A DNA stretch of 47,077 nt. Origin: Prochlorococcus sp. AG-347-B23. GTDB taxonomy: Bacteria > Cyanobacteriota > Cyanobacteriia > PCC-6307 > Cyanobiaceae. Both the position numbers and the translations under genes were made by a program. Location of the stretch: assembly GCA_003281715.1 (NCBI GenBank), contig QCBE01000010.1:1-47077 (forward strand), in the 5' to 3' direction. The notes under the pieces are model-generated. The model had not been told where the DNA came from, ran no database searches, and saw only the letters and a list, made by a program, of their open reading frames with translations. The number at the start of each line of letters is the position of its first letter. The stretch's first letter is position 1. Shown in pieces: positions 34,571 through 39,073 of this stretch.

Positions 34571-34581
34571 TCATCATATAT

Positions 34582-34653
<72 letters not shown>

Positions 34654-34680
34654 TTTTAAATCCACCTATAAGTGATGTTC

Positions 34681-34703
34681 AGAGATCTTAGGATCTCTTT
34701 TTT
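34681..34703 (+). terminator. intrinsic terminator after tRNA-Asn (inner)
   Basis: AGAGATC (34681-34687), loop TTAG, GATCTCT (34692-34698), followed by a T-run to 34703. A 7-base perfect stem plus T-tract is a canonical rho-independent terminator, 28 bases after the tRNA. Confidence 0.75.
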
Positions 34704-34771
34704 GTTGCAAATACTAATTCGCTCAGAAAACATGAAACTATAGCGGCTTCAATATTATTCCTATTCCTCAA

Positions 34772-34827
34772 AAATGTTCGCTAAATGTTCGCTATCCAGG
34801 AAATAAATGTTCGCTATTTGTTCGCTA
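34772..34827 (+). repeat. four TGTTCGCTA repeats in an 11-bp register
   Basis: Perfect copies of TGTTCGCTA begin at 34775, 34786, 34808 and 34819, i.e. spacings 11, 22 and 11. Each pair is a tandem of an 11-mer (AAATGTTCGCT twice; AAATGTTCGCT then ATTTGTTCGCT), and the pairs are separated by 11 bases ATCCAGGAAAT. All copies therefore face the same side of the helix. Such iterons suit cooperative binding by a recombinase (arm sites) or another element-encoded protein. No integrase gene is present in the window. Confidence 0.8.
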
Positions 34828-34862
34828 TAAATAAATTCGTACTCGGCATAACTAAGCAAATG

Positions 34863-34879
34863 TAGGCATACATAGGCAT
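34863..34879 (+). repeat. TAGGCAT direct pair
   Basis: TAGGCAT occurs at 34863-34869 and 34873-34879, ten bases apart, between the four iterons and the second attachment copy. Helical phasing and location suggest a second protein-binding site type in the same segment. Confidence 0.45.
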
Positions 34880-34898
34880 CTGATTCAGAACTTAAGTT

Positions 34899-34912
34899 CC
34901 GCCCGGGGAGTT
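34899..34912 (+). repeat. attachment-type direct repeat, copy 2
   Basis: Second exact CCGCCCGGGGAGTT. The bases before it (AACTTAAGTT) do not continue the tRNA, so it is a truncated tRNA 3' end, as expected at the far side of an inserted element. It is followed by another terminator-like hairpin at 34936-34960. Confidence 0.75.
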
Positions 34913-34935
34913 CAATAACTTGTTCCAGTAAGATT

Positions 34936-34960
34936 AGGAGATTGCCAAGGTCTCCTTTTT
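34936..34960 (+). terminator. intrinsic terminator after the second tRNA-end copy
   Basis: AGGAGA (34936-34941), loop of nine bases with two possible T-G pairs, TCTCCT (34951-34956), T-run through 34960. There is no gene immediately before it other than the duplicated tRNA end, so it may be the original tRNA terminator displaced by the insertion. Confidence 0.65.
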
Positions 34961-35287
34961 AGTTCCTAATATTGTTATCATGTTTTTTATTTTTTTTATT
35001 TGTATCTGAAATATCTAAATCATCATTTTTATAAAGACTACTTTTTACTAAATCTTTTTTTTAATTATTCTTAAGAACCTTATTCCAGTTAAATTTTTTT
35101 ATTTTTCGCGTTCTTTTACAGTCAGTAAAAACTATCGCTATTTTTTAAATTCCTTACTGTTCACTATAGTTTTTCAAAGTTTTTCATTATAGAATAGTTT
35201 TTTGTCGTCAATAATTTTTATTTAGAATGTGTCAGACAATCAACTTTTGGTATTATTTTACTTAGTTCAAATTTAAAGTTAAAAATA

Positions 35288-37063: not shown

Positions 37064-38200
37064 TTAATCCACAAACTCTTTATAAACATTTAACGTTAGA
37101 GTATTTATCTTAGAGACTGTAAAGTCTGAAATAACTTTTTGTCTTGCATTTTGACCAAGTTTCTTAGATATATTTTCATTATCAAGCAAAAATTGAATTG
37201 AAAGTTTTAAAGAAGAAACATTTTTTGCAGGAACTAACAAACCATTTTTTCCGTGTTCAATAACATCATTACAGCCAGGAACATCTGTTGTTATTATTGC
37301 GCATTCCATTGAAGCTGCTTCAATTAATGACTTAGATAATCCTTCTCTCCAAGAGGGTAAAACTACAATGTCGCATTTTGCATAAAGTTTTTTCATATGA
37401 TCAATATGGCCAAGTAATAAAATATTATTGTTTTTTGCTATTTCCTTTAAATCATTTTGATTAAGGCAACTGTTATTTCCAGGATCAACGAATCCAGCCA
37501 AATTTAATTGAAATGAGTACCCTTCTCTCCAAAGTAAATTGCAAGCATTGATTAATTCTTTAACACCTTTCTCTTTTATTAATCGAGCAGGGAATAAAAT
37601 CTGTATTGGATTTTTGAAATGTTTTCTAGGGGTATTTAGTCTAAAAAAATCTGTATCAACTCCTGAGCCAGGAATAATAATAGACTTATTAAATTTGCAT
37701 TTTGTTAATTGTTTGAATTTGCAATAATCATCTTTATTTTGAAAAATATTGATTATTTTACCTTTCAATATTATAAAACGAATCAACTCAGTAAGGAACC
37801 ATTTAATTGGTAGAAATTGTTTCTCTCTCATGAAGTTAAAGTGTGCCATACCAGTAAAGGCATTTATTATGTAATTCACCCCATACCACTTTGCTGCAAT
37901 TGATCCAAAAATACATGATTTAACTGTAAAATGATGAACTATATCTGGCTTTACCTTTTGGTATATTAAAAATAAATCGATAATCGATCCTAAGGCACTT
38001 AATGGATTTAGAGAATTACGATTTAGGCGCCAATTTTTAAAAATAATATTTTTTTTACAAAAAAATTTACTGAATTTATCTTCAGGTGCAACTAAAAATA
38101 ACTCATAATCATTTTTTACTAAATCATCTATTAGTTTATTTTTGAAATTATATAAATACCAAGAAGTATTAGAAACAAATATAACTTTTTTCTTTTTCAT
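37064..38200 (-). CDS. GT4-family glycosyltransferase (surface polysaccharide)
   Basis: 378 residues, ATG 38200. GT-B fold: N-terminal KVIFVSNTSWYLYNFKNKLI and KPDIVHHFTVKSCIFGSIAA; C-terminal IPGSGVDTDFF, ILFPARLIKEKGVKELINAC, IDHMKKLYAKCDIVVLPSWREGLSKSLIEAASM (with the EGLSKSLIEA nucleotide-sugar site) and AIITTDVPGCNDVIEHGKNGLLV. This resembles PglA/WbpQ-like transferases that start or extend surface glycans. It is on the opposite strand to the formyltransferase/deacetylase pair, which suggests stepwise acquisition. Confidence 0.88.
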   Translation of the reverse strand: MKKKKVIFVSNTSWYLYNFKNKLIDDLVKNDYELFLVAPEDKFSKFFCKKNIIFKNWRLNRNSLNPLSALGSIIDLFLIYQKVKPDIVHHFTVKSCIFGSIAAKWYGVNYIINAFTGMAHFNFMREKQFLPIKWFLTELIRFIILKGKIINIFQNKDDYCKFKQLTKCKFNKSIIIPGSGVDTDFFRLNTPRKHFKNPIQILFPARLIKEKGVKELINACNLLWREGYSFQLNLAGFVDPGNNSCLNQNDLKEIAKNNNILLLGHIDHMKKLYAKCDIVVLPSWREGLSKSLIEAASMECAIITTDVPGCNDVIEHGKNGLLVPAKNVSSLKLSIQFLLDNENISKKLGQNARQKVISDFTVSKINTLTLNVYKEFVD

Positions 38201-38713
38201 ATTTATGAAATTATCAATTAAATTTTATAATATTAACTTAGCTTTTTTCTTTGATTTTTAATGTGGAATTAGAAAAATCAAACAAAGAATAAAATTACTC
38301 ATTAAGCTTTAGATATAGACTAATTAGGAGTTGTAAGCATTTCTTGAAATTTATTGATTTTAATGTTTATAAGAGTTGTTAATGGTAGATATATACTTCT
38401 TTATGTACTTTGAGCTTTTAAAAGCTATCAAATTTGATGAAAATCTGAATCACAAAAATCAACTAAATTTTAATATTTAGAAAATATTAAAGATAATTTG
38501 TTTTTCTATTGAGAAAAGTTTTTAGAACATTAAAAAATAATTGTAATCAATTACTAAAACAAGGGATTATATAAAAAACTAAATTGTTTTTGAAGCAGTA
38601 AATAGAACATTAATATAAAGCTATTTATAAAAGTATTTAGTTTTTTAATTGATTTTCATACCTTAAATAGTCAAGATATTTTTAGAGATTTAATTACTCC
38701 TTATCAGGTACTT
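38201..38713. other. 513-base AT-rich spacer with two adjacent palindromes
   Basis: No convincing gene. It contains two abutting perfect palindromes, AGCTTTTAAAAGCT (38413-38426) and ATCAAATTTGAT (38427-38438). A 32-codon frame (38382-38480) runs across them but has low-complexity composition, so I do not call it a gene. Confidence 0.6.
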
Positions 38714-39073
38714 TTAGTCATCCCACATATCCTTTTTTTCTTGATTTAAATTATTTCTTTCAAGTAATTCTAATCTTTGATTCTGATAATCTATTTCTTT
38801 GTCATAATCATTTAAATCGTCAACATATTTTTTTTGTATTTCTAAGATAACCATTTCAAATTGCTCTCCAAAAAAATCTGACATTTCTCCCCATGCTTCC
38901 ATTTCCTCTTCTTTGTCAATAGTATCGTTTATCTGATGCGAAATAATTTCTAATACATATTTTTTAAGTTCTTCATGGCTCATTGATTCAACTTTTTTCT
39001 GAATAAAAAATTCCTTGAGATTTTCTAGTTGTTTCTTTGATAGATCAGAATAAATTATTTTCTTTTTTTTCAT
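38714..39073 (-). CDS. charged helical orphan protein
   Basis: 119 residues, ATG 39073. Extremely rich in K, E, D and Q (MKKKKIIYSDLSKKQL at the start; NDYDKEIDYQNQRLELLERN and KKDMWDD at the end). Predicted all-helical, no Cys, no membrane segment. The central HQINDTIDKEEEMEAWGEMSDFFGEQFEMVILE might form a coiled coil. I do not recognise it. Its isolation between two long spacers in the accessory region suggests a transferred or lineage-specific gene. Confidence 0.55.
   Translation of the reverse strand: MKKKKIIYSDLSKKQLENLKEFFIQKKVESMSHEELKKYVLEIISHQINDTIDKEEEMEAWGEMSDFFGEQFEMVILEIQKKYVDDLNDYDKEIDYQNQRLELLERNNLNQEKKDMWDD

Follow-up and report, generated by a model that had tools for sequence, protein, structure and literature searches.

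Mobile elements of Prochlorococcus, the tycheposons, were reportedly described by Hackl et al. in 2023. In the part of another paper available to us, tycheposons are given as cargo-carrying elements of 4–200 kbp with a tyrosine recombinase, and fGI-2 of the Methylophilaceae as an additive flexible genomic island with recurring tRNA-end repeats (PMC10872708). The accessible text on the intY/alpA islands at the tmRNA of Pseudomonas describes a direct repeat of 14 bp, an alpA gene at the 3′ end, cargo for defence and transfer that depends on a helper, together with an encoded integrase that is needed for excision (PMC12595487). The att modules of phage 186 (Apl) and prophage KplE1 (IntS, TorI) carry, in the excerpts available, arm sites and phased sites of a recombination directionality factor (RDF) round the core, with promoter overlap (PMC7498355, PMC2951348).

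Here we analysed a 47,077-nt stretch of a Prochlorococcus genome (the window), in which a short element lies at tRNA-Asn, together with related cassettes at the same tRNA across the genus. Like tycheposons, the tRNA-Asn cassettes belong to Prochlorococcus, target a tRNA and bear cargo; unlike them, they are mostly 0.2–5 kb long and no recombinase was found inside, which makes them, as tRNA-inserted elements lacking a recombinase of their own, at most a non-autonomous relative of that class. Elements with an integrase at tRNA-Ser, discussed below, resemble tycheposons, and an 11-bp arm grammar is common to them and the tRNA-Asn cassettes. As in fGI-2, variable segments beside the tRNA are delimited by repeated copies of its 3′ end, although tRNA and phylum differ and the accessible portion of that source mentions no arm-site code (PMC10872708). 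The likeness to the intY/alpA islands extends to the four features listed above and ends at the integrase, encoded there, and the att modules of phage 186 and KplE1 are alike in the elements just named, whereas binding is proved there and predicted here and their integrase acts in cis, again as far as those excerpts go. An integron cassette array is similar in lay-out only, the cores here being tRNA ends with arm sites.

Neither arm sites nor tRNA islands nor helper-dependent elements are in themselves new kinds; new, as far as our literature searches reach, are integrase-free, motif-labelled cassettes arranged in tandem at one tRNA. No description of these sites was found in the literature as judged by titles and the openings of abstracts, the original tycheposon paper lying outside that scope. 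The pair of sites next to the right core serves as a readable address label with which cassettes lacking an integrase can be found, bounded and classified at a tRNA of this abundant phototroph of the ocean, and it makes testable which enzyme moves recombinase-free elements and whether the arm motif decides which.

Phased repeats at the tRNA-Asn of the window

Four exact copies of the 9-mer TGTTCGCTA lie at 34775–34783, 34786–34794, 34808–34816 and 34819–34827 of the + strand with start-to-start spacings of 11, 22 and 11 bp, in agreement with the initial annotation, which had noted four perfect 9-mers on an 11-bp grid; of the interval given there for the array, 34772–34827, the end stands and the start is shifted, the first repeat beginning 3 bp later at 34775. 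The 9-mer alone is not enriched, with 9 matches at up to one mismatch in the window against 5.55 expected and 11 of 100 shuffles reaching 9. Four is the largest number of copies that any non-simple 9-mer in the window places on an 11-bp grid, the holder being TGTTCGCTA, and when the whole window was dinucleotide-shuffled 100 times, the highest such count was 2 in 91 shuffles and 1 in the other 9. Because the shuffles never exceeded two copies on the grid, the arrangement rather than the frequency of the 9-mer is the unusual feature, and the claim that it is hard to obtain by chance was confirmed, none of the 100 shuffles reaching four copies.

As also claimed, the array is non-coding, the open reading frames (ORFs) of at least 20 aa that touch 34600–35000 being only 20–32 aa long, and it stands beside an attachment copy, between an intact tRNA-Asn(GTT) (34581–34654, +; ARAGORN), the integration target, and a second 14-bp copy of the tRNA 3′ end. 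The left attachment core, CCGCCCGGGGAGTT, forms that 3′ end (34642–34655, +), and the same 12-bp core bounds the cassettes of relatives; the right copy of CCGCCCGGGGAGTT lies 257 bp away at 34899–34912 (+). Directly after the tRNA end comes a terminator-like hairpin with a T tract (34681–34706, +), followed at 34740–34749 (+) by ATAGCGGCTT, a stretch conserved among the left leaders of TGTTCGCTA elements in an alignment of six left ends, one of which has ATAGCAGCTT instead. The repeats at 34775 and 34786 are the left sites L1 and L2, the repeat at 34808 aligns both as the third left site, L3, and as the first right site, R1, and the repeat at 34819 is R2 by the right-end alignment. Between R2 and the right core, GGCAT recurs at 34845, 34865 and 34875 with a weaker AGCAA at 34855, forming a 10-bp-phased array (34845–34879, +) of candidate directionality-factor sites.

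Cassettes at tRNA-Asn across the genus

The paired motif TGTTCGCTANNTGTTCGCTA occurred in 6 of 266 genus genomes, that of the window included (5 of 265 others), at 11 places in total, every one of them in an att-bounded element downstream of tRNA-Asn, and a reversed-pattern control gave 0 in every genome listed. Clusters with this spacing are thus not scattered at random over the genus; random scatter was an outcome that the initial annotation had named as speaking against its reading. A search with a model of the right end returned, out of 265 genomes, the same 6 with E-values below 1e-30, the next best being 2.6e-4, and 151 of 265 genomes reached E ≤ 0.1.

In four relatives (G003, G078, G118 and G161) the two ends stand apart, with three sites at the left end (spacings of 11 and 22 bp) and two at the right end (11 bp), and the distance from the first left to the first right site is 3,011, 869, 2,791 and 1,508 bp, respectively. 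The right pair of TGTTCGCTA elements starts 92 bp before the right core. In G003 an extra core separates the two ends and places them in adjacent segments of 2,684 and 550 bp, and in G118 and G161 another cassette intervenes between the TGTTCGCTA cassette and the tRNA. The ends are fused in the window and in G001, leaving three left sites plus one more, with the third doubling as L3 and R1; in G001 the fourth site is changed to TTTTCGCTA. Because the two ends stand apart in four relatives, the 11/22/11 pattern reads as a junction, and the array of the window is very probably, by this alignment, a left end joined to a right end. The initial annotation had described the four sites as one array; a native four-site operator or array was rejected, as relatives have two separate ends.

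We located tRNA-Asn in 211 of the 265 genomes and examined 106 loci, namely the window and 105 fetched regions, of which 5 bear the motif and 100 were not chosen by motif. A site was called empty when it had one core and the marker gene within 420 bp. By this measure 39 loci were empty, 34 had at least one further core, 25 carried another insertion (defined as no second core at one mismatch) and 8 had no marker gene in the stretch; the 100 loci not selected by motif gave 39, 28, 25 and 8, respectively. The core lies 312–379 bp from the marker in 33 of the 39 empty sites and 112–265 bp in six, which are possibly altered. Of the 34 occupied loci, 20 have 337–368 bp between last core and marker, as empty sites do, and cassette insertion at tRNA-Asn is precise. 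The other 14, the window among them, show 128 bp to 3.8 kb, and therefore further DNA was gained or lost there. Up to four segments stand in a row, with repeated tRNA-end copies bounding variable segments, which is the hallmark of an additive flexible genomic island and is found in the 34 of 106 loci with a further core.

In the window, the DNA past the second core runs for 3.8 kb to the marker gene. From 34913 to about 38370 it holds about 3.5 kb beyond typical empty sites, with formyltransferase-like and polysaccharide-deacetylase-like genes; no further core was found at the right end of this extra DNA past 34912 at one mismatch, nor by eye in 38190–38730.

Core-to-core segments numbered 49, from 183 bp to 10.3 kb, with the markerless loci L178 and L187 giving one each; cassettes of one family are related, so the counts that follow are not counts of independent events. 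A right-hand 9-bp pair (at most one mismatch, 11-bp spacing, 58–112 bp before the right core) was present in 39 of 49 segments, starting 86–94 bp before the core in 36 of the 39, and 10 had no clear pair. With no positional limit, the last 150 bp of 31 segments held a perfect pair in 22 and a near-perfect one in 26, compared with 5 and 84 of 6200 shuffles, and 23 of the 26 near-perfect pairs started at 86–93 bp. The motifs differ between cassettes and include TGTTCGCTA, TGGTCGTGA, TGGTGGGAA/TGGTGGGGA, GTTAGTGTA, ATGTTCGGG, TGTGGCATT, TTTCTTGTT and TCGTTCTGG. The left end echoes the right motif of its own cassette: over the 31 cassettes longer than 400 bp with a right pair, mismatches summed to 89 versus 176.7 (sd 9.2) for permuted partners, and none of 20000 permutations was as low, while 11 of the 31 had no left copy within two mismatches. 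Repeated sites thus flank the core at both ends of the integrated element, as expected of arm-type sites, both in the four two-ended relatives and by motif matching.

One tandem array at tRNA-Asn (L041, G161:C14:8000-26000, read in reverse) is a row of four segments that lack an integrase: two carry TGGTCGTGA, a third TGTTCGCTA, and the remaining one shows no clear pair. The array bears defence-type cargo, including genes for a C-5 cytosine methylase and for a protein that has both restriction and helicase domains. A terminator-like hairpin with a T tract was found in 25 of 49 cassette left ends versus 1 of 49 shuffled ones, and each cassette may bring its own tRNA terminator. Nine of the 49 segments are shorter than 300 bp, and since eight of them keep two or four sites (by eye), cargo-less forms recur. 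Cargo-less elements of 183–257 bp with little beyond both ends were seen at L070, L077, L078, L185, L195, L223 and L037 and in the window (34643–34911); by eye, those of L195 and L223 retain four sites spaced strictly by 11 bp.

Candidate enzymes and the reading of the sites

No integrase was matched in the 106 tRNA-Asn stretches by six tblastn queries and one profile made from the same six, the profile recovering 29 of 29 known loci, some of which were used in building it. Inside the cassettes, neither a motif scan of 31 segments nor tblastn on 46 regions found one, and no integrase with TGTTCGCTA sites was found elsewhere in the genus. Neither a cognate integrase, as would be expected of arm-type sites, nor the tyrosine recombinase of its own that marks a tycheposon was thus found in the element. 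A serine recombinase was considered as the mover and rejected, PF07508 being matched in 0 of 8 genomes.

Integrase loci of the genus lie at tRNA-Ser in 19 of 20 cases, and of 10 more, 4 lie at tRNA-Ser, 3 at tRNA-Thr/Tyr and 3 at no tRNA. Sorted by best match to six references, all 13 clade B integrases had an 11-bp pair in the interval from 120 bp upstream of the open frame to 45 bp into it, several of the 13 being near-identical and two being the mirrored pair of one contig (L228), whereas such a pair was found at 0 of 14 clade A integrases, 0 of 12 core recombinases and 0 of 3 of a third type. Clade A shares the tRNA-Ser target of clade B, yet is without 11-bp pairs. In 5 of the 13 the pair caught first was ACTTGACAT or a one-base shift of it, and four of these five also had TGTTTCCGA/ATTCGGAAC-type pairs nearby. 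Three tRNA-Ser elements have a 41-bp att repeat, arm sites at both ends and the integrase inside. The L228 contig (G185:C15, 18.4 kb) shows a mirrored tRNA-Ser element with an integrase at both ends, possibly an assembly artefact.

We lean, with moderate confidence, towards reading the 11-bp sites as arm-type sites for an integrase that acts in trans on non-autonomous cassettes, of which the window holds a collapsed remnant, a prediction drawn from sequence comparison. A tyrosine integrase would bind the repeats at both ends of an integrase-less tRNA-Asn cassette. Cargo-bearing members have three sites at the left, tRNA-side end and two at the right; once circularised, such a cassette would have one group on each side of the crossover core, in the manner of P and P′ arms. 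The N-terminal domain of the integrase would grip the arms, with strand exchange in CGCCCGGGGAGT, and an AlpA-like directionality factor, encoded by many sister cassettes and not by the TGTTCGCTA ones, would occupy the 10-bp-phased array between the right arms and the core. We infer that the integrase is supplied in trans because related islands are stacked without a recombinase gene. The cargo of the window would have been lost, most simply through L3 × R1 recombination, yielding an element of 257 bp that keeps both cores, the three left sites and one further site and that may still be mobile.

The enzyme that we favour is a visiting clade-B-like integrase rather than the conserved core enzyme, a tyrosine recombinase of about 389 aa (G000:C1:34170-35336; L159, L045). 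We consider it very unlikely that the core enzyme works on the same arm sites from its own chromosomal place, although it is matched at E ≤ 1e-5 in 74 of 75 good genomes of the family and is the sole PF00589 match in 5 of 8 near-complete cassette-bearing genomes (G003, G012, G032, G118 and G125), where a tRNA-Ser integrase as query likewise gave one match each; in the other three (G001, G114 and G161) it is not the sole match. Its modelled N-terminus, three strands and a helix at a pLDDT of about 82–91, may recall arm-binding domains, but the model is poor beyond residue 80 (mean 63.7), the best structural matches are Xer-type and no Pfam arm-binding domain was hit. A single enzyme would also have to read many arm motifs, even within one array, and the core recombinase is the less likely candidate because the motifs vary and its own gene is without the pair. 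In a broader conjecture, which we regard as quite unlikely, tRNA-Asn would be a cassette dock like a chromosomal integron, with recombinase-free, arm-motif-labelled cassettes inserted, stacked and collapsed in trans, in its boldest form by the vertically inherited core recombinase.

The initial annotation had proposed phased cooperative sites of an integration module, naming integrase arm sites, iterons or a directionality factor; the arm sites fit best, nothing was found for iterons and the directionality factor is a live rival. According to that rival, which we judge rather unlikely, the 11-bp repeats would be bound by an AlpA/Xis-like RDF instead of the integrase and would also serve as the operator of that factor. 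In the available part of one source, RDF sites are direct repeats spaced by about one helical turn (PMC7498355), and the TorI sites include GTTCG, a string within TGTTCGCTA, in that of another (PMC2951348); because of these printed phased sites and the shared string, our confidence in arm sites is no higher. Of the 49 segments, 20 have an AlpA-like ORF, which in 18 cases opens within 35–143 bp of the right end, beside the pair, but none was found in the TGTTCGCTA segments, which thus have no RDF gene of that kind. The similarity of AlpA proteins was not significantly related to that of the arms or spacers (Mantel, partial r 0.09/0.07, reached by 349/395 of 2000 permutations), a comparison that favours neither reading.

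Both the 11-bp sites and the 10-bp array are direct repeats near the core with a spacing of roughly one helical turn, so this feature does not discriminate between them. The 11-bp sites, however, stand at both far ends, and the 10-bp array lies nearer the core: the spacer from the right pair to the core has a lag-10 autocorrelation of z 7.5 in 20 non-redundant spacers and z 9.9 in 27, with none at lag 11 (z 0.9 and 0.3), and an interior control shows no lag-10 signal (z 0.5, n = 36), though the left leader has a weaker one (z 4.8, n = 15). The order of arms, 10-bp array and core would suit directionality-factor sites placed between arms and core. That the repeats are replication iterons or a transcriptional operator unrelated to integration is scarcely plausible: phased repeats would suit any cooperative binder, and five marine viral contigs have one TGTTCGCTA pair and no integrase-like motif nearby, but in all 6 genomes the sites lie in att-bounded tRNA-Asn elements with the right pair 92 bp before the core.

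The motif outside the genus and in phages

A phage was considered as carrier of the cassettes and rejected on the following searches. No match to the G078 cassette was found in 50,697 phage records, nor one to a clade B integrase in phage records, and two right-end junction patterns gave 0 matches in viral contigs. Scans with three other motifs hit 2, 5 and 2 viral contigs, none recognisable as a Prochlorococcus cassette. The exact pair was found outside the genus in 11 genome stretches and 10 viral ones, several of which continue as partial 11-bp repeats, and at most of these loci a crude motif scan found no integrase near the pair, some stretches being short; the TGTTCGCTA motif alone is non-diagnostic. 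The five marine viral contigs with a single pair (L018, L019, L022, L023 and L024) share the context GTATGATTTCTGA. In L024 a large ORF lies downstream, which we tentatively take to be a terminase.

The initial annotation had named, as a further refuting outcome, that no recombinase-bearing element shares the repeat. For the exact motif none was found in the genus, whereas the 11-bp grammar, with other motifs, is present at all 13 clade B integrases and the motif itself adjoins an integrase frame in a Lachnospiraceae contig (L006, 1854–1884), where three TGTTCGCTA copies at 11 bp start within 6 bp of the frame end. In a viral contig (L156, 12521–12540), TGGTGGGAA repeats likewise begin no more than 6 bp from where an integrase frame ends, and these two unrelated contigs hint at a widely shared arm-site style.
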